Shown piece by piece: positions 14,892 through 26,659 of a stretch of DNA of 64,000 nt. The notes below the pieces were generated by a model, which did not search any database, was not told the DNA's origin, and was given only the letters and a program-made list of their open reading frames with translations. Numbering within the stretch: the first letter of the stretch is position 1; each line of letters opens with the position of its first letter. The position numbers were made by a program, and so were the translations under genes. This stretch comes from Burkholderiaceae bacterium (lineage in GTDB: Bacteria; Pseudomonadota; Gammaproteobacteria; Burkholderiales; Burkholderiaceae_E), in contig JAMLIS010000016.1 of assembly GCA_023954015.1 (NCBI GenBank), positions 1-64,000 on the forward strand, read 5' to 3'.

Positions 14892-14905
14892 GGGTGTCAG
14901 AACGG
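14892..14905. repeat. Left attachment-site repeat of the ssb-targeting element
   Basis: GGGTGTCAGAACGG. It matches GGGTGCTAGAACGG at 26646-26659 in 12 of 14 positions, with the last seven (AGAACGG) identical. On the minus strand it reads CCG TTC TGA, that is Pro-Phe-stop, the expected last codons of ssb. It is therefore best read as the displaced original ssb end (attL or attR by convention). Confidence 0.75.
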
Positions 14906-14923
14906 TTAAGCCCATCAAAAATG

Positions 14924-14932
14924 GTAAACAAC
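14924..14932 (+). repeat. GTAAACAAC box, left end
   Basis: It starts 18 bp inside the left core and is the exact inverse of GTTGTTTAC at 26622-26630, which ends 22 bp inside the right core. A second direct copy is at 15037-15045. In the circular form the two outer boxes would flank the core as an inverted pair, the arrangement of tyrosine-recombinase binding sites. Confidence 0.65.
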
Positions 14933-15036
14933 CGTGCTCGTGTGAGTGAGTGAGCGCGGTTAGGCGGCGTTTCCGTAGAGCGCTATGTCAACGACCGAGG
15001 CCACAAGTAGCGTAGTCAAGGCAGTAATCGCAGTTT

Positions 15037-15045
15037 GTAAACAAC
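15037..15045 (+). repeat. Second GTAAACAAC box, left end
   Basis: Exact copy of the 14924-14932 box in the same orientation, 113 bp further in. The 14906-15061 stretch holds no gene. The box is a candidate arm-type or excisionase site. Confidence 0.5.
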
Positions 15046-15061
15046 GCTGCGGGGCTTCAAG

Positions 15062-15280
15062 TCAGCACGAGGAGCACGAGGAACTACCCGCCTGCATCGG
15101 GGGGCACTTGTACGTCCCGTACGAACAGAACACGCAACAATCGCCGGCCTTGGGCCGCAACACGGTCTTGCAACCCTCGCATTCGTAGAACCACTGGCAG
15201 GCGTCCGTTGGCATTGTCTCTGTCTTCTTGTGGCCGCATACGGGGCAAGTGATTGTGGATTGCAGAACGATGCTGCTCAC
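15062..15280 (-). CDS. GDCCVxC-domain small protein (cysteine form)
   Basis: 72 aa starting from GTG 15280, 3 bp after the previous stop. It has a zinc-ribbon-like start (CPVCGHKKTETMP), an ECEGC pair and the hallmark KAGDCCVFCSYG, then KCPPMQ. The family name comes from this motif and some members carry selenocysteine; here the positions are Cys codons with no in-frame TGA. Related small proteins often sit in mercury-resistance or mobile contexts, but the role is unknown. The C terminus (SSSCSSC) adds two further cysteines. It is the last gene of the element. Confidence 0.7.
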   Translation of the reverse strand: MSSIVLQSTITCPVCGHKKTETMPTDACQWFYECEGCKTVLRPKAGDCCVFCSYGTYKCPPMQAGSSSCSSC

Positions 15281-15283
15281 ACT

Positions 15284-16195
15284 TCACTCCACACCCGCCC
15301 AGTCGACGATTTCTTGGGCAAGCGGTTGCGCCCCATCGTGCGTGGCAACTCGGAAGCCCCGCTTCTCGAGCCGCCAGAGTCGCTCACCAAGAACATTCTC
15401 GAGACGCTCCATGTCCGGCTTGGGCATCGAATCAGGCTTCGGAGCCATCACAAAAAGCGCGCGGTCTTCAAGGTTGCGCAGGCGCGCAAACGTAGACACG
15501 TCTTCAGAGGCGCGTAGCAAGTTGAGCTCCACTCTCTCGTGCCCTTTATAAACCGCCGAGACGACCGAACCCACCTTGCCCTCGGGATGAAGGTTGAACT
15601 CGAGACGGTGGCGCGCTCCGCTACCCGGCTCCGCGACGTCGTGCACCGACTCGATGACGATGCGTTCGAAGGCCATACGTGCAATTCGCTTGAGCTCCCG
15701 GTTCACCAGTTCGCGGACCGCTTCGTTGTCCATCGTTTCGAAGTCTCGCAGGCGCCGTTCTTCCTTGGGTATGAACGGCACCACATCGGCGTAGAGCCGC
15801 GAAAGAACGACTTCGATTGAGGCACCAGACGTGGGCCACAGTTCGCCAAGCGACACCATGTCCGTTTCGAACTGAATCGACCCCAGACTCACCGCGTTGC
15901 GCCGCGCTTCTTGCAGCGCGTCTTCTGCGGACTGAAGCACAGCGCGCAGAAGAGCGACGTCGTTCTTGCCGTAGATGCACTCGAATTTGGACAGGTCTTC
16001 GAGCAGGAGGAACTGGAACTCGCCCTCGTGTGCGCCAACCACGACCCCGACTGTGTAGCGCTGCCGTGCAAAGAGGTCCGGCTGAATCTCGACAGTGGCC
16101 CATACGCCGCGGAAAGGCGCCTCGGGCACGGGCGTCAAGTGCCCCTTCAAGTGAGCGAACGGGTCAGACCCGGACGATAAAAAAAGGCTGTTCAT
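15284..16195 (-). CDS. DUF3037-like protein encoded with a HipA-like kinase
   Basis: 303 aa, no signal peptide or membrane segment. The N-terminal part (ATVEIQPDLFARQRYTVGVV and LLLEDLSKFECIYG) resembles the start of DUF3037 proteins, which are typically encoded beside HipA-like kinases. That is a motif-level resemblance from memory. The remaining two thirds, from about residue 110, match nothing I recognise. Its ATG overlaps the kinase stop (ATGA), so the two are translationally coupled and probably act together. Confidence 0.55.
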   Translation of the reverse strand: MNSLFLSSGSDPFAHLKGHLTPVPEAPFRGVWATVEIQPDLFARQRYTVGVVVGAHEGEFQFLLLEDLSKFECIYGKNDVALLRAVLQSAEDALQEARRNAVSLGSIQFETDMVSLGELWPTSGASIEVVLSRLYADVVPFIPKEERRLRDFETMDNEAVRELVNRELKRIARMAFERIVIESVHDVAEPGSGARHRLEFNLHPEGKVGSVVSAVYKGHERVELNLLRASEDVSTFARLRNLEDRALFVMAPKPDSMPKPDMERLENVLGERLWRLEKRGFRVATHDGAQPLAQEIVDWAGVE

Positions 16196-16998
16196 GAAAT
16201 CTGTCCCAATTCATTCGCTAGCCAGCCGGGTTGTGCGCGCGCGTCGAGAAACTCCAGTACCGTGGCGGCGAACGCGTTGCCAGCTTGCGTGTCAGGAGCC
16301 ATCGACAGTATGAACTGACGCAGCCGCGGGCTCACGTCCTCAAGCGCGGGAAGATGTTGGTCGGATGCGAGAATCATCGCAGCCTCGAACCTCTTATAGT
16401 CACCGGACTTCAACTGCGCGCGGGCCGCGGCGCGCAAGCTGTTGTGGCCGAATGGAAGGCCGTTCGCAAGCCACAAGAGGCTGTACAGAATCAGCTCGTT
16501 GTCGATGGGAACATAGTCCCCCTGTGCCGTCTGAAGGAAATTTCCGAGATGACGGTCCTGGTTCTCCGCCCAGACATCGAACGCAGCAATCTCAGCTACG
16601 GAGGCGTGCCTGAGCGCCGACGCGTGACGCCGTCTCGCGATGAACGGCCAGCGACTGGTGATATGCCTGCCGGGAACCGCGGAGGAGCAATACCCGAGAA
16701 TCGTCGGGTACCTTCGCCAATGCTGGTCCAACCCCATGTGCTGCATGAGCTGGGGAACAGGCAGGAGAATGACGGCAGCAAACTGGGGACGAGGCAAGTC
16801 CAGGGCCTTCGCAATCATCCATGCAATGGCCTCCGCAATAACCATCGGAAAACCTGGAGGAGAGGCCTTCACGTAACACAGATGCTCAATGCCCTGTGCG
16901 TCGACTATCAGAGCCTGGTGCGTCGTGTGGTTCTGCCCCTTGTTTTTTGCGACTCCCCTGAATTCTCTCCAGGCGGACGCTGGCAGTATCGGAATCAT
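16192..16998 (-). CDS. HipA-like Ser/Thr kinase (HipA_2-type)
   Basis: 268 aa from ATG 16998 (MIPILPASAWREFRG, the typical HipA_2 opening); TTG 17043 would add 15 residues. Motifs: a beta-strand with VKASPPG in the ATP-lysine region, the helix MVIAEAIAWMIAKALDLPRP, the catalytic loop ENQDRHLGNFL and the metal-binding PIDNELILYS. Unlike classical HipA there is no HipB-like HTH gene; the partner is the overlapping DUF3037-like gene. The target and whether the pair is toxic, regulatory or defensive are unknown. A gap of about 140 bp separates it from the helicase, so it may have its own promoter. Confidence 0.7.
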   Translation of the reverse strand: MIPILPASAWREFRGVAKNKGQNHTTHQALIVDAQGIEHLCYVKASPPGFPMVIAEAIAWMIAKALDLPRPQFAAVILLPVPQLMQHMGLDQHWRRYPTILGYCSSAVPGRHITSRWPFIARRRHASALRHASVAEIAAFDVWAENQDRHLGNFLQTAQGDYVPIDNELILYSLLWLANGLPFGHNSLRAAARAQLKSGDYKRFEAAMILASDQHLPALEDVSPRLRQFILSMAPDTQAGNAFAATVLEFLDARAQPGWLANELGQIS

Positions 16999-17139
16999 TT
17001 CCCCGTCGCATTTACAGTTGCTTATTTTGTGCGACTCTACCAACCAGAGCTTTGCAGCGAAACTACCGCGGCCGCTCGTCGCCTGAAACGTTCGACCTCA
17101 GTGTGTCCGCACCGCCACAGCAACGAGTCAAGGCCGCCC

Positions 17140-19371
17140 TCACGGGCTGGACGCAACTCGCTCAGCGGGCGCTGCTGGAACAAGCGATTTCTGCGAAGCC
17201 TTCAGTAAGTTCAGTAGCGTGAGGTCCAGCGCGACGTCTCGCTCTTCTACTCGCGGCAGCGATTCAACCGCCTCCCTCGCCGCGGCCTCATCGCCAACCA
17301 GAATGACCTGAGATTCGGCTCGCGTGATTGCGGTGTAAAGCATCGCGCGGTCAAGACCCCTCCCGGGTACGACCGGAACAATGATTCTCTTCCACTGAGA
17401 GCCCTGTCCCTTGTGCACGGTCACCGCGTATCCGAGGGTTATGTCATCCAGCATTTCCTCCACAATCGGGCGGGTAACCCCATCGTCCCACTCGACCCAT
17501 GCCAGCGACCATCCCATCGAATGGCCAGCAGAGTCGAGCTGCTCGGTAGGGGTGTTGTCAATGGATGCAATGACACCCATGGAACCGTTCTGCAGTCCGC
17601 GGTCCCACATGTTGCGCGTGCAAAGAACCGTGTCGCCGACATGCAAGCCGGTGGCTTCGTTGGCCAGCGTCAGAACGGGAGCGGTCGTGCGAGCGAATCG
17701 CTGCTGCGCAATGGCGTTAATGAGGCTTGCGCCGCCCGCACCGTTCTTCTTCGACACGAGCACTTGGGTCGACGTTGGGTCCAGTCCGTAGAGGTCGACC
17801 ACGAGGGTAGCCAACTCGTTCTCGTCACAAGAGCTTGCCAAGAAGCATATGGGCTGCTCGATGTCGCTTGGAAGCGCAGGCCAGCTGCCTTTGCGGACGC
17901 GTTGTGCCGCGGCGAGGATGGCCCCGCCGTAGCGACGAACGGACTTCAACTCGACCTGCGGCACCGAAGGAACTTTGACAAGAGCGTGCAGAACAAGACC
18001 CGGGCCGACAGGCATCAACTGAGCGGGGTCGCCAAGCAGCAGCAGCCGAGTATCCGGACCCAGTCGCTCGCATATGGCCGCCATGGAGATGATGTCCAGC
18101 ATCGAGGCCTCGTCGATGACCACTACCGTCGGGGACTCAAGGTCTCCCGGTTTGGTCTGGCGAATGAACGAAGCCACCGTGCTCGCTGGCTTACCCGTCG
18201 CGTCCTGCATGCGCTTGGCAGCGCGCCCAGCGAGGGCAATCTGGATGATTCGCGTGTTGGCCTGCTCGTAGACCTTGTGAATGGCCTTGAGCACGGTCGT
18301 CTTGCCGACGCCTGCTCCACCGGTGATGACCGCAACGGGGTGACGGTTGGCGAGTCCAACCGCCAGGCGTTGTTCGCCGTTGAGGTGCATGGACTCGGCA
18401 CGCTCGTAGTCGTCGATGAGTCCGTGCAGGTCATCCTCCGGAATTTCCGGCCGGGGCTCGATGTTCTTGGCGAGAAAGCGCGCAACGACACCTTCCATTG
18501 CAGCAGCACCGAGGGGCTGCACACCATAGGGGCCGATAACGAACGAGCCATTGGCCAGTCCTTGGTCCAGCGCCTCGTTAGCCGCAGTCCAGGAGCCCGG
18601 TCCCAGAAGCCGCGCGAGACGAGTCCGCAAGTCGGCCCGCAGCACAGAGGTGTGCCCCTGCGCGAATGCCGCATAGCACGCTTCCTCGATGGCCCCCTGA
18701 ATCCGGCGGGGGTCGTCTGCGCGCACGCCGAATGTCTTCCTTGCAATCTCGTCGACCTGCTTCCACGTCGCACAGAATGACAGCAACCGATAGGGGTCCT
18801 CGCTCAAGCGCTCTTCAGTCGCCGGCCCGTGGAACTCGAGTACCTTTCGTCCGATGGTCACGTCCAACCGAAGGCTCTGGAGCCACTTCAATGCCTGGGA
18901 GTTGCCGGACAGCGCCCAAGCCGAAACCGCGTTCGTAGCGACGTCCGCAGAGAGATACCGGGACAGCGTTGCGACGTCACCCTTGTCCAGCACGTCATAC
19001 AACGCATCGCCAAGCGCATCCCATAGCCGCCGTGCCTTGACCATGCCGATGCCGGCGAATGCGGGCGTGCGTGCCAGGTACATCACGAGATGCTCGCCAG
19101 AGAGCCGCTGCATGGTGGCTGTCTTTGCGGTGAGCGATATCTCCGTCAGTCGGAACCCATTGACCTCGACGTCGCGCGACGCTGTATCGCCTTCGAGGGT
19201 CCACCACTGACCCGGCTCAACGAGAGTGCCGAAGACGCTTTGCGGAGCGGTGACCAGAACGTAGGCGCGTCCGTCCACGACCCGCCCCTCGGCGTCGAGC
19301 TCTTTGCCCGTGAACACCGTCCGACCAGGAGTCTGCTTGCGGACGGTCGCGACGCGAACGGTGAGGCTCAA
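17140..19371 (-). CDS. RecD-like SF1 helicase of the element
   Basis: 743 aa. Residues 1-300 hold an OB-like start and helix-hairpin segments as in RecD2; ATPase motifs then follow: Walker A GGAGVGKTT, motif II VVVIDEASMLD, motif III LLLGDPAQLMPVGPG, motif V-like TLGYAVTVHKGQGSQWKRII and motif VI MLYTAITRAESQVILVG. These define an SF1B 5'-3' helicase of the RecD/TraA group. TTG 19371 overlaps the upstream stop as TTGA. Being coupled to the recombinase train, it probably serves element processing or replication rather than RecBCD. Confidence 0.85.
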   Translation of the reverse strand: MSLTVRVATVRKQTPGRTVFTGKELDAEGRVVDGRAYVLVTAPQSVFGTLVEPGQWWTLEGDTASRDVEVNGFRLTEISLTAKTATMQRLSGEHLVMYLARTPAFAGIGMVKARRLWDALGDALYDVLDKGDVATLSRYLSADVATNAVSAWALSGNSQALKWLQSLRLDVTIGRKVLEFHGPATEERLSEDPYRLLSFCATWKQVDEIARKTFGVRADDPRRIQGAIEEACYAAFAQGHTSVLRADLRTRLARLLGPGSWTAANEALDQGLANGSFVIGPYGVQPLGAAAMEGVVARFLAKNIEPRPEIPEDDLHGLIDDYERAESMHLNGEQRLAVGLANRHPVAVITGGAGVGKTTVLKAIHKVYEQANTRIIQIALAGRAAKRMQDATGKPASTVASFIRQTKPGDLESPTVVVIDEASMLDIISMAAICERLGPDTRLLLLGDPAQLMPVGPGLVLHALVKVPSVPQVELKSVRRYGGAILAAAQRVRKGSWPALPSDIEQPICFLASSCDENELATLVVDLYGLDPTSTQVLVSKKNGAGGASLINAIAQQRFARTTAPVLTLANEATGLHVGDTVLCTRNMWDRGLQNGSMGVIASIDNTPTEQLDSAGHSMGWSLAWVEWDDGVTRPIVEEMLDDITLGYAVTVHKGQGSQWKRIIVPVVPGRGLDRAMLYTAITRAESQVILVGDEAAAREAVESLPRVEERDVALDLTLLNLLKASQKSLVPAAPAERVASSP

Positions 19372-19808
19372 CGCGGCATCCTTCCAGTGAGCTCCAAGGC
19401 CTCCCGGATGACCGCGTGCCGCTCCAGGGCGAACTTCAACTCGGCCACCTCGGCACGCAGGGCGGCGTTCTCCTGCTCCAGACGCCGCAGGCGCTCCAAA
19501 TCCTGCCGGGTGGCACCCACCCCCTGTCCCTCGCGCTGCGGGCGCTCTGAGGGCGTTGTAGGGCCCTTCCCGGCCAAAGCAGGGAGGACCCCTCGTTCAC
19601 GCAGGTGTGTCTCGAGCTCAGCCAGGGCCGCTTTGACGCGCGGGTTCTGGGCAAGCGCCGACTTCGCGAAACCGCACTCCTTGGCGATTTCCGTTCGAGA
19701 CAATTGACCGCGGACGGTCATCTCCCGGAAGTCTGCATCAGTCTTCGACGCCGCCCACGCTGTGAACAGCTCGACGTTGACTTCCGCAAGTTGCTGTCCG
19801 CTGGCCAC
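19368..19808 (-). CDS. VPA1267-family-like small protein of the recombinase module
   Basis: 146 aa, GTG start with GGGAG upstream. The N-terminal half has an HTH-like segment (LSRTEIAKECGFAKSALAQN), and the C-terminal half is a predicted coiled coil (LERLRRLEQENAALRAEVAE), ending RMPR. This layout resembles, from memory, VPA1267-family proteins that accompany multi-recombinase mobile modules. It is likely a DNA-binding accessory factor; no enzymatic motif is seen. Confidence 0.6.
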   Translation of the reverse strand: MASGQQLAEVNVELFTAWAASKTDADFREMTVRGQLSRTEIAKECGFAKSALAQNPRVKAALAELETHLRERGVLPALAGKGPTTPSERPQREGQGVGATRQDLERLRRLEQENAALRAEVAELKFALERHAVIREALELTGRMPR

Positions 19809-19811
19809 GCC

Positions 19812-20234
19812 CTACTCCCTCGTCTGTCCGCGGTAGGTCTTCACCAGAGGCGCGTTGAGCATCTCCGATGTCAGCCCCTTCTTCTGGGCGTTGGCGGCCC
19901 AAAGAATGAACATCTCCCGGTGTGCGTTGAGCTCTGCCTTCAGGCGCGCGTTCTCGGCACTCAACTTCGCCACCACATCGCTCAATGCGTTGACTCGGCT
20001 ATCTTTCGAAAGTGGTCGTCCGGCCTCCTTGGCGACCGCACTCTTGCGCAGGACGAACGCGTCGGCAATGCGCTTGTGCCCCGCGAGCGCCTGACGTGTG
20101 TACTCGGTGCCGATGCTCGCCTTGATGGCCTTGATGAGCGCATCCCAGGTGAGCTTGCCCTTCCACCCATCGAGAATGTCGAGGATGGCCTCGGTGATTT
20201 GCTCGTCGATGACGCGTCCGCGCGACTTAGCCAA
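19812..20234 (-). CDS. Small coiled-coil accessory protein of the recombinase module
   Basis: 140 aa, TTG start with GGAG 6 bp upstream, overlapping the recombinase 3 stop by 8 bp. An N-terminal helical region (DEQITEAILDILDGWKGKLT) is followed by a basic linker and a heptad-like stretch (LSAENARLKAELNAHREMF). Size and position recall Tn554 TnpC or GmtX-type accessory proteins, but I see no specific sequence match. Function unknown. Confidence 0.6.
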   Translation of the reverse strand: MAKSRGRVIDEQITEAILDILDGWKGKLTWDALIKAIKASIGTEYTRQALAGHKRIADAFVLRKSAVAKEAGRPLSKDSRVNALSDVVAKLSAENARLKAELNAHREMFILWAANAQKKGLTSEMLNAPLVKTYRGQTRE

Positions 20235-21030
20235 GTTTGGCTCCTTCGAGCAGCGGAGTTTGCCGAGCAGGAAGCGCTACACGGTGCTCGCCCTCACGCT
20301 GCGCCCGCGCTTGCTCGAGACGGGAGGCTGGCTTGACGCCGGCCAAGCGAATGGTTGCCCCTTCGGGAACAGCTGAGTTCTCGAGAATGGCAAGCAGCTG
20401 GTTGCAGTGCGCAAGTGTCTGCCGCTGATGCGCCACCCACCGCGAGGCACCATAGGTCTCGCATTGCTCAGCTTCCTCAGCCTGCCGCAACATCGCCTCG
20501 GTCTGGTCCCGCAAGCGCCGTATGTTCTCGGTTTTCACCAGGTCGCCCTTCACGCAAACCAGCTCGTTGCAGTTCAGGCAGTCGGCATATAGCTGGCAAG
20601 GCGACATCGCGTAGTCGTGCGTGCAGAAGCCATAGTCCGTGATGTGTGCTGAGCCGGTAACGAGGTGACCGGCCTCGTCTCGGCGCGCCACGACGCGAAT
20701 TCTCGGGGTATCGAGGTCGCCGCCAAAGAGCGGCGAAGCAACCGTTGCGAGTTCGCGCACGTTCGACATGATTCGGTCGGGCGTGACGTGGTCATAGGCT
20801 TTGTTCTGCCCCACGTCCGCGCGTCCGGACCACATTGCGATGTCGAGCTGCGAGGCGTTGTTAGCCTGAGCCAACGTGTTGAGATAATGGCGAACCTGAT
20901 GGCTTGCCAATGCGATGGGCGAGCCGTCGTCCTCGGTGAGACCGAATCTGTCGAAGACGGTCTGTTTCGTGGTGCCGCTGCTGCCTACCCGGCTGGCAAT
21001 CTGGTCGGACGACAGGTAGTCGATGAGACA

Positions 21031-21040
21031 CATGTAGGTC
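21031..21040. repeat. IS target-site duplication, left copy
   Basis: CATGTAGGTC, repeated exactly at 22499-22508 on the other side of the IS. Ten base pairs is within the range for IS4-family elements. No mutations have accumulated, so the insertion is probably recent. Confidence 0.92.
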
Positions 21041-22498
21041 CAATACTGTTCAGATAGAAGATCTACTGGCATAATGCGGCTCCGTCCCCTTCGAAGAAGG
21101 ACGGAGCCCTCATGGCAAGAACACGCAAGTCGCTGCCGGAGAAGGTCGACGTGGCTCATCTGATCAGCACCGGGGTGCTGGCCAGCGTGTGCCCACGAGC
21201 ACTGATCGATGAGGTGTTGCAGGAAACGGGCCGCGCCAGCCAGCGCAATCGGTTGCTGCCGGCGCCGGCGGTCGTGTATTACGTGATGGCACTGGCGCTG
21301 TGGCGCGATGCGCCGCTCGAAGAGGTGCTGCGAGTCGTATGCGAAGGGCTGCAATGGCTCGGCGGGGGCGAATCCGAGGCGGTGCAGGCCAGCAAGTCGG
21401 CGATCTCGCAAGCGCGCACCCGACTGGGGCCGGAAGTGATGCAACGGCTCGCGCAGCGGGTGCTGCGCCCGCTGGCCGAGCCCGGGGCGCCGGGCTCGTG
21501 GTACCGGGGGCTGCGCGTGATGGCGCTCGATGGCAGCGGCATGGATGTGGCCGACGAGCGCGCCAACGCCGAATTCTTCGGCTATCCAACGGCTACGCGC
21601 GGCCAGAGCGCCTTTCCACAGGCGCGCCTACTCGGTCTGGTGGAGTGCGGCACGCATGCCGTCGTCGCGGCCGACATCGCGCCTTATGCACGCAGCGAGA
21701 GAGCGATGGCCGCGCAGCGACTGCCCCAGTGGCTGCGCCAGGACATGCTGGTGATGGCCGACCGGGGCTTCTACGGCTTCAAGCTGTGGGGTCTGGCCTG
21801 CGCCAGCGGGGCGGCGTTGCTGTGGCGCGTGAACTCGGTGCTGAAGCTGCCGGCGCAGCAAGTGCTCTCCGACGGCTCGTACCTGAGCACCGTATTCGAT
21901 AGCACCGACAGCGCCCGGCGAGACGGTCGACTCGTGCGTGTCATCGAGTACACGCTGACTGGGGCGGGCGTCGCCGCGCAAGAGAGCTACCGTCTGGTGA
22001 CGAATCTGCTCGACCCCGAAGCTGCACCCGCTCTCGAGTTGGCTGCGCTGTACCACGAACGCTGGGAGATCGAGGGGGTGTTCGACGAGTTCAAGACGCA
22101 CTTGCGTGCGGCCAGCACGGTGTTGCGCAGCAAAACGCCCGACCTTGTGCATCAGGAGCTCTGGGGGTTGCTGCTGGCGCACTTCGCCATTCGTCAGTTG
22201 ATGGCGCAAGCGGCCTGGCAGCGCGGACTCGACCCGGATCGGCTGAGCTTCAGTCACGCGGTGCGCGTGATTCGACGCAAGATGCCGCAAGCTGCGGCCG
22301 TTCCCCCCTGAGCGCCTGGAACGTTGGCGCGAGGCGCTGCTCACCGAGATCGCTCGCGGCCGCTGCGTGAGTAGTCGTGGGCGGCACAACCCGCGCGGCG
22401 TCAAGCGCAAGATGAGCAACTTCAACGTTCGGCATCGCGGCGCCGCGCTCCATCAGCGCCTTCAACCGGTACCGGTGATATCTATCTGAACAGTATTG
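21041..22498 (+). mobile_element. IS4-family insertion sequence, 1458 bp
   Basis: Bounded by perfect 18-bp inverted repeats, CAATACTGTTCAGATAGA at 21041-21058 and its inverse at 22481-22498, with a 10-bp target duplication outside. It carries one transposase gene reading opposite to the host element. The end of the transposase frame is shifted (see the CDS entry). It lies within recombinase 3. Confidence 0.95.
21112..22311 (+). CDS. IS4-family transposase (C terminus out of frame)
   Basis: 399 aa. DDE residues are recognisable: ALDGSGMDV, VMADRGFYGFK and the IS4 YREK signature YHERWEIEGVFDEFK. The frame stops at TGA 22309 directly after a run of six C. In the +1 frame the coding continues from 22301 as FPPERLERWREALLTEIARG and on to KRKMSNFNVRH, the usual IS4-type C terminus, ending at a TGA just inside the right inverted repeat (about 22489). 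Either one base was lost or gained, or the CCC-TGA site supports +1 frameshifting. Confidence 0.9.
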   Translation: MARTRKSLPEKVDVAHLISTGVLASVCPRALIDEVLQETGRASQRNRLLPAPAVVYYVMALALWRDAPLEEVLRVVCEGLQWLGGGESEAVQASKSAISQARTRLGPEVMQRLAQRVLRPLAEPGAPGSWYRGLRVMALDGSGMDVADERANAEFFGYPTATRGQSAFPQARLLGLVECGTHAVVAADIAPYARSERAMAAQRLPQWLRQDMLVMADRGFYGFKLWGLACASGAALLWRVNSVLKLPAQQVLSDGSYLSTVFDSTDSARRDGRLVRVIEYTLTGAGVAAQESYRLVTNLLDPEAAPALELAALYHERWEIEGVFDEFKTHLRAASTVLRSKTPDLVHQELWGLLLAHFAIRQLMAQAAWQRGLDPDRLSFSHAVRVIRRKMPQAAAVPP

Positions 22499-22508
22499 CA
22501 TGTAGGTC
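22499..22508. repeat. IS target-site duplication, right copy
   Basis: CATGTAGGTC, identical to 21031-21040. Confidence 0.92.
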
Positions 22509-23720
22509 CGCAGCTTCGCATCCAGCTCGAACCTGCGCATCACAAAGAGAGACTCACTGAACTTCAGCCCGGGCTGCGCGTAAGGGAAGCCCTTGGGCAA
22601 CTTCTTGAGCACGCGGTCCTGAACGTCGTCGAAGGCGTATGTGCCGTCACGACGGGGCACCTTTTCGCTGATGCACCATCCCTTTGCGGCCTGCGCGTCT
22701 TCGACACCGATGAGGATGAGCGAGACCTCCTCCGGACGAAGTCGTTTTGCCGAACGAAGGTGCTCGATGCGTGAGTGGAGGTAGATTTGTTGCGGATGCT
22801 CTTCGTACCAGCGCGCAATCGCCCTTGCTTCAGCGGAGACTGCCTTGAGCTTGGCTATCGCTTCCCGCGCGACATCCGCCATCGAGGGCAGTATCCACTT
22901 GATACCGTTCTCGAAGCCCTTCGACGGCGGCCATCGGAGCCCGTACTGGACGGTGCCCGCTGAATCCTTCTGCTCCACCTCGCAGTCGACTTTGAGCCTG
23001 ACTGTCTCGTTGATGCGCTGTGGTGCGCAATGCAGCAACGCCAACGTCGAGCCGACATACAGCTCGTTGGGTTCCTCAGCATTCACGAACACATGAGCCA
23101 TCGCCGCAATGGCCGCGGCCGAGGGCATGCGCTTTTGCCGCGCTTCGTCCGCGTCCTTGCCGACCCGCAGGTTGAGCTCTCTCGCCTTCTTGAGGGGCTT
23201 GACCCACTTCGTCTTCATCTCGACCAGCCGGGACTCGACGAGGAAGGTGGCGAGCAACTCTATCTGCCCGGCGATTTTTGGAGCGAGAGTCTCCGAGTAG
23301 TTCTCCACCGCCAGGCCAACGGCGCGGTTCAACGTATCGTGGGTGATAGCCGTGACACGACCGCCATGTCCGGACTCGCAAAGCGCAGCATCGACCAGGC
23401 GAAGTGCAGTGAGCCGTTGCGCGAACGCCGCCGTGGGTCGCATCGCGTGCATGTAGCGGAAGTACGCCTTGGCAAATGCCTGGAACCCTGGGGCCATCGT
23501 CGGCGTATTTCGATTCGCCTTCGCGGCCTCGAGCGAGGAGAACACGACACGAACGGTCGTCGTCCGACCCTTCAATTGGATGTATTCGCTGACGTCCCAG
23601 ACGTCCTTGTCGAACGGGAGGTCGGCACCCAACGCAGTGAGCGTGTCTCTGCACTGCCGCACGAATGCGACAAGGTTCTGCTCTGCAGCAAGCTCCGCTT
23701 TCGGAGTGAACTGGATGATG

Positions 23721-25274
23721 TCAGCCATTGAGCGCACCTACGCTTTCGGCTTCTCCTTGCCGAATCTGTTGACATGCATCGACGACACTCTGTATTGCCA
23801 TGATGGTGCGGTCGTTGATGGACGCGACGCGCGGACCCGAAGACACGAGCAGCCGTTCCCTCTCGGCAAGAAGGTGCTCGAGAAGAGCCTCATGAGGGGC
23901 GTCCAGCCAAGCCTCGAAGTTGTGGCACGTGTAGCAAGCGATTGGGGCGTTGAACTTGCAGTCGTACCTTGTCCCGCAACTGCCCACCGTCTTGCCCGCA
24001 TTGGCGTAGTCCACGATGTCGCTCGTGGGGTCTCCGGCGCGACTGGCTGCGTCCTTGTCAATCAGAATCCGGCCCTTGAACGCGTTGGCGATAGGCGCGA
24101 GTTCCTTTGCAAGTTGCTTGTCCAAGCGCTGCGCAATCTCCGGAATCACGGCGACATAGCACTTGACGTTCTGCGTGTCGACATGGCCCAGCAGTTCGGC
24201 GATGACGAGCTCGCCATAGCCCTCCTGCGCAGCGCGAGTCCCAAGCGTATCTCGGAACCTGCCGATGCCGATGTGTATCGGCTCGCCTGTCCGCATGCTG
24301 ATGGGCGCTATTCGACGTAATCCTTGTCTGAAGTAGGCGCCGAGCGCCACCACATCGGGGTGATGGCGAAACTCGTCGTTGAGCTGCATGTCCTCATTCG
24401 CGACCGAGGTGGTCGGGAACAACGGGGCGTCCTCGCCCAGCTCGCTGTGAAAGCGGGCAACGTCCTGTGCGTACTCCCAGAGCGCCTTGCCAATCTGTTC
24501 GGGCAGCGGTCGCATGAGGAAGGCATCGCGAAGCAACGCGTCTCTTTGCTTCGCACGCGGGATGTCAATCTGGTACTCGGTGCGATGTTCGGATTCCACA
24601 CGACGGACGTCCTTGACCTTGAGCGAGCAATACTGGCAGGTGCGTTGTCCGGTCAGTGCGACGAGCCACGCCAACAGGAAGAGCTTTTCTTCAATCACGT
24701 TCTCCGCATATGCATGCGTGACCGCGGACATGAGCTCTTCGAACTCCAGGTCACTCAGGGGACCCTGGACGGGGTCCAAAGTCACAACAGCTTCTCCCTT
24801 GATGTTGCCCTTCTTTCGGCGGCTGGTGAGGAATCGAACGGCCTCGTCGGATACTCCTTCAAGACCTAACGCTGACCAGCGATTGAGCAAAGCAGCAACC
24901 TGCGATTCGAGACCAAGTCTGTCGCTTGTTCCGCACTTGGCGATGAAGTTCAGCAGGTGGACGGTTTCGATACGTTCGACCGTCTCGCCTTGCTCTGCCA
25001 CTACGCTCGCCAGCCTGCGAAAGTTGTAGAACATGTTGCTGGCGTAAACCGACGAGTTACGCTGGAGGATGTCGATTAGCACCCTTTTCAGGCTCTGCTT
25101 AAGGGCTTCGACTTGCGAAGGCAGACTATCGAAGTCGATGTAAATCGAGCGAACACCGTCGAGAAAGCGCCAGTAGTTGTCGCGTGGTGCGAACCGCGCA
25201 CCACTGCGCAACGTGATGACCTCGGGAAGGTCGTCCTCAAACTCCGTCTGGGCTTGTGCTTGATTCAGTGTCAT
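23721..25274 (-). CDS. Tyrosine recombinase 2 of the element
   Basis: 517 aa from ATG 25274, which overlaps recombinase 1 (ATGA). The catalytic domain in the second half has the first Arg in TGQRTCQYCSLKVKDV and a box II that reads IGRFRDTLGTRAA, so the usual first His of HxxR is Gly. LLGHVDTQNVKCYV then supplies the second His and the Tyr. A Cys-bearing tail (GSCGTRYDCKFNAPIACYTC) follows the Tyr and looks like a zinc-binding knot, as in some multi-recombinase elements. It is predicted to act with the two flanking recombinases. Confidence 0.82.
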   Translation of the reverse strand: MTLNQAQAQTEFEDDLPEVITLRSGARFAPRDNYWRFLDGVRSIYIDFDSLPSQVEALKQSLKRVLIDILQRNSSVYASNMFYNFRRLASVVAEQGETVERIETVHLLNFIAKCGTSDRLGLESQVAALLNRWSALGLEGVSDEAVRFLTSRRKKGNIKGEAVVTLDPVQGPLSDLEFEELMSAVTHAYAENVIEEKLFLLAWLVALTGQRTCQYCSLKVKDVRRVESEHRTEYQIDIPRAKQRDALLRDAFLMRPLPEQIGKALWEYAQDVARFHSELGEDAPLFPTTSVANEDMQLNDEFRHHPDVVALGAYFRQGLRRIAPISMRTGEPIHIGIGRFRDTLGTRAAQEGYGELVIAELLGHVDTQNVKCYVAVIPEIAQRLDKQLAKELAPIANAFKGRILIDKDAASRAGDPTSDIVDYANAGKTVGSCGTRYDCKFNAPIACYTCHNFEAWLDAPHEALLEHLLAERERLLVSSGPRVASINDRTIMAIQSVVDACQQIRQGEAESVGALNG

Positions 25275-26518
25275 CGCATCGCCTTGAACATTTTTTCTTG
25301 CAACTCCGTGAGCGCCGTGTGCGCCTTTTGCTCGACATACCGAACCGTGTAGTTCTCGGCGCTTCGCGACTGGTCGGACCAACCCATGAGGTAGTTGCGC
25401 ACCTTCTTCTCTTCGTCTTCGGTCAGTTTGCCCTCGACGAGCTCGGAGAAACGGTCGTTCCAGGTGTGGCGCAAGAGATGCGCTGACAGCGGCTTGCCGC
25501 CCCAGCATTTGCGCAGCGTTGCGAACATGTAGTCCACAGCGTTCAGCGAAAGCGGCTCGCCTCGCTCACCGACAATCAGGTAAGGGTGCTTTCTCGCGAG
25601 AGAAAGCTTCGAACGCAGGGCCAAGTAGCGCTTGAGCTCGGCCAGAAGTTCAGCCCCCACCTGCAGACCCCTGTCGTACGTCTTTGTTGCTGGCCGACGC
25701 CGGCGGCGCTCTTCCGGGTCGTCCGCGCGACGGGCGATGAACAACCTGCTCTCGGACAAGTTGATGTCGTGGGCCTTGACGCCCAGCATCTCCCCCTTGC
25801 GGATGCCCAGCCCGAGGAGCAGGTAGACGATTAGGTGGTTCCGCAACTGCAGGAACTCGTCCGACCAAGGATTCCGCGGTGATTGTGGACGGACGATTTC
25901 CAGCAACTCGGCTTCGTCCGTCTTGGTCAGCCCGCGTTTGCGCGCGTGAGTCCCGCTCTTTCGTGCTAACGGCACGCGAGAAGAGAGAGCCCTGATGGTC
26001 TTGTCAGCGACTCCCTTGAAGACCTCGCGGTCTCGAGGAAGCTTTTGGAGGTAGGCGTACTCGGCGAGCCAAGCGAGGTACTGCGCTACGTACTTCAGGC
26101 GAACGAGAGCCGTGTTGCTGCTCACCACGGCAAGGTCAGTTCGTTGGCGACCGCCCTTCTTGAATCGAGCAATGCTCAGTCGTGCAGGCTGGCCCTTCGG
26201 CGGCCCACGGTGAATCTCATCGAGGTCCTGCTTCTTCAGCTTGCATTGCTCGACGAGGGTTTCCACTTCTCCCAGCGTCAGCAGCTCGTTGTTCTTGACT
26301 CGCTCAATTAGGTCAATGCCGCTGGCCGACAGAATCTGGTACAGCAGCTGAACCGACCGAAGGGCTTGACCAATAGTGTTCACGGCGCGACCGCGCGAGC
26401 GCATGGTCAGCGCGTAGGCCGTCGGTTCGAAAAGTCCCAGACCAGTGCCCGCGTCGCAGAGGAGTGGCATCTGCTCGCCCGACTCGAGGTCCACGCTGAC
26501 GACGGAAAAGCCGGTCAT
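25271..26518 (-). CDS. Tyrosine recombinase 1 (integrase) of the element
   Basis: 415 aa, first gene of the element, ATG 26518. Box I is LLLGLGIRKGEMLGVKAHDI, box II HLLRHTW, and the last motif is LMGWSDQSRSAENYTVRY. The second His is replaced by Trp, a change known in some active recombinases, and ENYT holds the Tyr. The start codon touches a TTGTTTACGTTTT arm of a 13-bp inverted repeat, so the protein may repress its own promoter. Confidence 0.85.
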   Translation of the reverse strand: MTGFSVVSVDLESGEQMPLLCDAGTGLGLFEPTAYALTMRSRGRAVNTIGQALRSVQLLYQILSASGIDLIERVKNNELLTLGEVETLVEQCKLKKQDLDEIHRGPPKGQPARLSIARFKKGGRQRTDLAVVSSNTALVRLKYVAQYLAWLAEYAYLQKLPRDREVFKGVADKTIRALSSRVPLARKSGTHARKRGLTKTDEAELLEIVRPQSPRNPWSDEFLQLRNHLIVYLLLGLGIRKGEMLGVKAHDINLSESRLFIARRADDPEERRRRRPATKTYDRGLQVGAELLAELKRYLALRSKLSLARKHPYLIVGERGEPLSLNAVDYMFATLRKCWGGKPLSAHLLRHTWNDRFSELVEGKLTEDEEKKVRNYLMGWSDQSRSAENYTVRYVEQKAHTALTELQEKMFKAMR

Positions 26519-26586
26519 TGTTTACGTTTTCTTTGACTGCGTTATATCCAGTAGATAGTACGCGGCCAAGAAAAAAACGTAAACAA
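26518..26586. promoter_or_regulatory. 13-bp inverted repeat around the recombinase 1 promoter region
   Basis: TTGTTTACGTTTT (26518-26530) and AAAACGTAAACAA (26574-26586) are perfect inverses separated by 43 bp of AT-rich DNA that must hold the recombinase promoter. Each arm contains 8 of 9 bases of the GTAAACAAC box seen at the element ends. The likely readings are recombinase arm sites or an autoregulatory operator, or both. Confidence 0.6.
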
Positions 26587-26621
26587 AGAAAAACCCCCGT
26601 CTATCGGAGACAAACGGGGGT
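26587..26621 (-). terminator. Rho-independent terminator downstream of ssb
   Basis: On the minus strand ACCCCCGT and ACGGGGGT form a stem of at least 8 bp (more with a G-U pair) and are followed at once by TTTTTCTTT. It lies 30 bp beyond the ssb stop and inside the element end. It would insulate the recombinase operon from ssb transcription. Confidence 0.85.
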
Positions 26622-26630
26622 GTTGTTTAC
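26622..26630 (-). repeat. GTTGTTTAC box, right end
   Basis: Exact inverse of the 14924-14932 and 15037-15045 boxes. It lies 22 bp inside the right core. Confidence 0.65.
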
Positions 26631-26645
26631 GAAATCACACTGACT

Positions 26646-26659
26646 GGGTGCTAGAACGG
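26646..26659. repeat. Right attachment-site repeat within the ssb 3' end
   Basis: GGGTGCTAGAACGG. It includes the current ssb stop (TAG) and the last two sense codons (CCG TTC). The seven bases AGAACGG are shared exactly with the left repeat at 14892-14905, and 12 of 14 overall. Confidence 0.75.

Follow-up and report, generated by a model that had tools for sequence, protein, structure and literature searches.

We conclude that two overlapping genes in the window, the 64,000-nucleotide stretch of a Burkholderiaceae genome analyzed here, probably encode a divergent member of the PDC-M66/DS-6/HipAD group that a GInt island carries among its cargo, and that they most likely act, judging by homology, as an abortive infection system of the toxin-antitoxin type. 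The combination of a HipA-like kinase with a DUF3037 protein is the PADLOC candidate PDC-M66. The initial annotation had put the pair forward as the best candidate for an undescribed system, a view that is not supported: beyond the PDC-M66 entry, systems of this kind have been validated as DS-6/HipAD (PMC13092281) and in retron-Sda1 (PMC12548924). Novelty is limited to a divergent branch that escapes the PADLOC and Pfam models or only just registers with them.

Both genes are intact and joined by an ATGA overlap (Table 1), as had been noted for a coupled 303-aa partner. A longer kinase frame could begin at a TTG at 17043; the ATG is favored because relatives start at the equivalent codon. The kinase carries NQDRHLGN and PIDNE, in agreement with the ENQDRHLGN and IDNE motifs first picked out, and neither a HipB-like open reading frame (ORF) nor an HTH partner lies beside the two genes, the absence of HipB having likewise been claimed. 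In six other genomes the two genes are neighbors in the same order with the same 4-bp overlap. Within one close genome pair (G810/G793), dN is well below dS for the kinase (0.013 versus 0.146; dN/dS, ~0.09) and for the partner (0.041 versus 0.381; dN/dS, ~0.11), and purifying selection thus acts on the pair in close relatives. Given this conserved neighborhood and the low dN, the two ORFs are not due to chance.

Table 1. Features of the kinase/partner pair and of the island that carries it (window coordinates)
Feature	Position	Strand	Basis or remark
att repeat, far end: GGTGTCAGAACGG	14893..14905		Imperfect partner of ssb-end repeat
Motif GTAAACAAC, copy 1	14924..14932	+	3 in window versus 0.02 expected
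Motif GTAAACAAC, copy 2	15037..15045	+	As above
GDCCVxC small cysteine-rich protein, 72 aa, directly after pair	15062..15280	-	Other cargo
Partner, 303 aa, divergent long DUF3037 (PDC-M66B-like)	15284..16195	-	Intact ORF; profile homology
ATGA overlap, kinase stop/partner start	16192..16195	-	Sequence; translational coupling
HipA-like kinase, 268 aa	16192..16998	-	ATG at 16998; intact ORF; HipA_2/PDC-M66A-type homology
RecD2-like helicase, cargo between gin operon and pair	17140..19371	-	TIGR01448, 318 bits, below cutoff
VPA1267-family small protein	19368..19808	-	NF040697, 179.5 bits (cutoff, 90)
Candidate ginD, 140 aa	19812..20234	-	Inferred from position after ginC; weak VPA1267 match
ginC-like recombinase, split by IS4 copy	20227..23737	-	680 aa stop-to-stop across empty IS site
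IS4-family insertion	21041..22498	+	NF033592, 253 bits; 18-bp perfect terminal inverted repeats
ginB-like tyrosine recombinase	23721..25274	-	NF041502, 457 bits (cutoff, 350)
ginA-like tyrosine recombinase	25271..26518	-	Phage_integrase PF00589, 45.6 bits
Motif GTAAACAAC, copy 3	26622..26630	-	As above
att repeat, end of ssb: GGTGCTAGAACGG	26647..26659		11/13 identical to other end

The kinase is present in 3 of 150 related genomes, its own genome being counted and one match being weak, and the pair also occurs in G128 and Massilia aurea (G647). Searching 392 genomes of one family with a partner profile retrieved 12, in 7 of 44 genera (the X group, defined here, included), and each of the 12 has the kinase gene immediately upstream of the partner gene. 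We refer to the pairs of the window, G128, M. aurea, G538, G810, G793, and G749 as the window group and to those of G824, G707, G672, G702, G779, and G667 as the X group. The G749 kinase is cut by a contig end, and the G672 kinase is split into two frames. X-group pairs (L046-L051) consist of a kinase and a 280-aa partner ("GEWATLAFRPDLGSQQEF"), and the one pair checked, L049, has no PADLOC match. Canonical pairs, which were gathered with Pfam DUF3037, have partners that are short (~130 aa) or long (280 to 290 aa). A clear PDC-M66 pair, L015 (PDC-M66A, 1e-71; PDC-M66B, 5e-93), matches the window pair in gene order, gene sizes, and overlap. A further kinase with a 275-aa partner is found at L052 (8767-10409), where the likeness to DUF3037 was judged by eye only.

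For the kinase, the match to Pfam HipA_2 (PF20613) lies just below the threshold (E value, 4.7e-6; 26.5 bits against a cutoff of 27), and that to PADLOC PDC-M66A is marginal at an E value of 0.001 (PADLOC results are given as E values, without its own cutoffs). Comparison of profiles is clearer, as the kinase profile matched PDC-M66A-type kinases in hhalign at 96.6% (E value, 5e-10). Residues K44, E56, D141, D148, R149, N153, and D166 are invariant in 30 of 30 aligned kinases from six groups; the active site, on whose conservation among homologs the initial annotation had made its reading depend, is therefore conserved in these kinases. A PDB sequence search returned no match for kinase or partner, and the kinase as query matched nothing among plasmid and phage records or, used alone in a first search, among genome contigs. 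The structure model of the kinase (mean pLDDT, 55) retrieved generic protein kinases with Foldseek/VIA-align (Z up to 7.6), including PI4KII, CtkA, and HipA-HipB (4pu4; Z, 6.2) among the rows spanning most of the model; such matches are no better than background for models of this kind and thus are not used as evidence.

The partner alone matched nothing in Pfam (including PF11236) or PADLOC (including PDC-M66B), nor did it match any of the viral contigs searched. The DUF3037 remark in the initial annotation is thus a judgment by eye, without direct support in any library. Its link to DUF3037 is a profile comparison: window and X groups together matched canonical long DUF3037 proteins at 88.5% (hhalign; E value, 2.7e-6; score, 49.8), a score that needs the X group added to the window group. 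With the Z group added to the canonical side, the match rose to 94.7% (E value, 6e-8; score, 60.3), and the best of 60 column-shuffled controls scored 18.7 in the first comparison and 17.9 in the second. The window group alone reached 13.6% (E value, 0.002), and none of 100 shuffles scored as high. Columns 32 to 307 align with canonical columns 13 to 281, and from this alignment, running from near the start to the end, we conclude that the partner is a diverged long DUF3037 protein with approximately 25 additional N-terminal residues. The earlier view that only its start resembles DUF3037 was wrong; nearly the whole length aligns to PDC-M66B, and known long partners measure 280 to 290 aa. An AlphaFold2 model of the partner built from a two-row alignment was unusable (mean pLDDT, 34.8). 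The partner is predicted to be the antitoxin, or keeper, of the kinase and possibly a sensor.

From the published relatives, we infer toxicity of the kinase, neutralization by the partner, and protection against phage. The partner would be translated right after the kinase from the same message, coupled to it, and would hold it inactive. Phage infection would disturb this hold, and the freed kinase would phosphorylate an essential target of the host (or of the phage), with growth stopping before the phage finishes. The validated members are far diverged from the window pair, and target and trigger could differ. It is even possible, if unlikely, that the window and X groups constitute a separate class of kinase/keeper defense, in which the extra N-terminal segment and the diverged DUF3037 domain would sense another phage signal and the kinase would hit a target other than that of HipAD.

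The carrier is a GInt island (14893-26659) at the end of ssb, which substantiates the carriage on an integrative element first proposed, and its G+C content is 61% versus 69% outside. Two tyrosine recombinases, a third recombinase-like gene, and small proteins, followed by cargo, make up a GInt (PMC5385486). The island has the three tyrosine recombinase genes and ginD, the small protein, in one operon, with cargo after ginD. Its insertion is site specific and lies at the end of ssb, a frequent site for GInts, between imperfect repeats within the 10- to 17-nt range of these elements, here 13 nt long and identical at 11 of 13 positions (GGTGtcAGAACGG and GGTGctAGAACGG). Integrase models match ginA and ginB; the assignment of ginD, and of ginC once the IS is read through, is based on position and size, as neither matches a family model in its own right. 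In a congener (G010; L075), ssb and an EamA gene lie ~0.5 kb apart with no island, and homology to the window breaks at the right-hand (ssb-end) repeat. Within the window, GTAAACAAC is confined to the island ends, in inverted orientation, and its copies are possibly recombinase binding sites. The island differs from other GInts in that an IS4 copy, bounded by a target duplication of 10 to 11 bp (CATGTAGGTC(C)), splits ginC; as ginABCD are all reported to be essential, the island is probably immobile.

We rejected a gamma-mobile-trio island despite the VPA1267-family gene (GmtY model, 20.9 bits against a cutoff of 340). Among the other cargo, the GDCCVxC protein has a relative on 349 plasmids, some of the best matches being beside mer or ars genes, and the RecD2-like helicase is not beside the other pairs in the neighborhoods of relatives. 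A three-gene system that includes the helicase or the GDCCVxC protein was rejected, as neither accompanies the other pairs.

The surroundings of the relatives could be read for six of the seven window-group pairs, and all six are on mobile DNA or beside Hma, an XhoI-type restriction-modification (R-M) system, or a methylase/ATPase module, an association that is descriptive and covers six loci. The G128 pair adjoins HmaABC (full-length matches), and those of M. aurea and G538 adjoin genes for an XhoI-type restriction enzyme together with its methylase (the XhoI label was assigned by eye; that of PADLOC is type II restriction enzyme). Next to the G810 and G793 pairs is a module of four genes, among them those for a DUF1156-like methylase and an ATPase, and apparent type IV secretion genes, recognized by eye, also adjoin the G810 pair. 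The G749 pair lies at a contig end, with ordinary genes downstream. Beyond the window group, the X-group pair of G779 has both a type I R-M system and a gene for a PtuA-like ATPase as neighbors, and the canonical pair L012 adjoins type I R-M genes (by eye). Close relatives thus occur in mobile or defense surroundings and not mainly in core genomes away from mobile DNA, the finding that was to have overturned the initial annotation. As for the four-gene module itself (L043, 127-8122; L044, 89-8084), it encodes proteins of 313 aa, ~904 aa (the ATPase), 331 aa, and ~1,100 aa (the DUF1156-like methylase), and three of the four have no PADLOC match at 1e-20.

Of the roles first suggested, namely defense, addiction, or host control, homology and the surroundings of the relatives make defense the more likely. 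We consider it improbable that the pair is purely an addiction module whose kinase would kill or arrest cells on loss of the GInt and play no part against phage. The toxin-antitoxin logic would be identical, and addiction modules, R-M systems among them, have been reported on GInts (PMC5385486); however, close relatives are neighbors of Hma, R-M, and methylase modules, some without a visible element of their own, and protection against phage is what the known system of this type provides. Addiction and defense are not mutually exclusive. That the pair is an inert passenger, decaying on an island disabled by the interruption of ginC, is very improbable, as neither gene is broken, no catalytic residue is missing, and relatives are under purifying selection.

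Least probable of all is a housekeeping regulatory pair akin to the short HipA_2 and 130-aa DUF3037 pair of the same genome, for although the same two domains occur there in the same overlapping order, short pairs have shorter partners and ordinary surroundings, whereas partners in the window group are long, and the group itself is patchily distributed and lies in mobile or defense surroundings. That short pair (contig 11 of G000; L011, 3980-5264) is found among ordinary chromosomal genes; it and its counterpart in G372 have half-length partners, and no link to defense was seen for them.

If the pair is, as we favor, an abortive infection system, HipA-DUF3037 defense pairs would extend further and vary more than present detection models indicate: PADLOC and Pfam see little or nothing of two branches (the window and X groups), and GInt islands would be among the carriers of such pairs. 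Such natural variants could help to locate the residues that set target and trigger specificity.

The comparison with known systems sets the window pair apart from HipBA and HipBST, with which it shares a HipA-type kinase and, as predicted, the restraint of a toxin by a partner. The kinase gene comes first, the partner is unrelated, and there is no HipB-like HTH antitoxin; HipBA was rejected on the grounds that an HTH partner is missing and that the partner is DUF3037-like. Closer is the HipA-DUF3037 unit in the operon of retron-Sda1, which needs none of the retron parts to defend against phage Bas51; deletion of HipA ends this defense, and deletion of DUF3037 is toxic (PMC12548924). The window pair is likewise a two-gene kinase/DUF3037 unit; it differs in its GInt carrier, and no reverse transcriptase gene was seen on the island. 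DS-6, or HipAD, protects Escherichia coli, an active-site mutation of the kinase abolishes defense, AlphaFold3 predicts a kinase-partner complex, and the system has been proposed to be abortive and of the toxin-antitoxin type (PMC13092281). The link of the window pair to DS-6/HipAD and Sda1 runs through the PDC-M66 models and the statements of those papers. PADLOC does not recognize both genes (no match to PDC-M66B and an E value of 0.001 to PDC-M66A), and the kinase, marginal to HipA_2 and PDC-M66A, stands with the X group on a branch of its own, while the partner, with its extra N-terminal residues, is missed by PF11236 and PDC-M66B. The failure of PADLOC tests the sensitivity of its models, not the biology, and hence we use the label "divergent relative." In common with PDC-M66/DS-6/HipAD, the window pair has two genes that overlap by 4 bp, kinase first and partner second; a kinase of ~265 aa with the catalytic Lys, Asp, Asn, and Asp intact; a partner of 280 to 300 aa, homologous over nearly its full length, in which the N-terminal DUF3037 domain and the C-terminal half are recognized at the profile level only; and surroundings of mobile or defense genes. 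It is the profile homology of both proteins, together with the retained catalytic residues, that identifies the pair as a divergent relative of PDC-M66, that is, of DS-6/HipAD.
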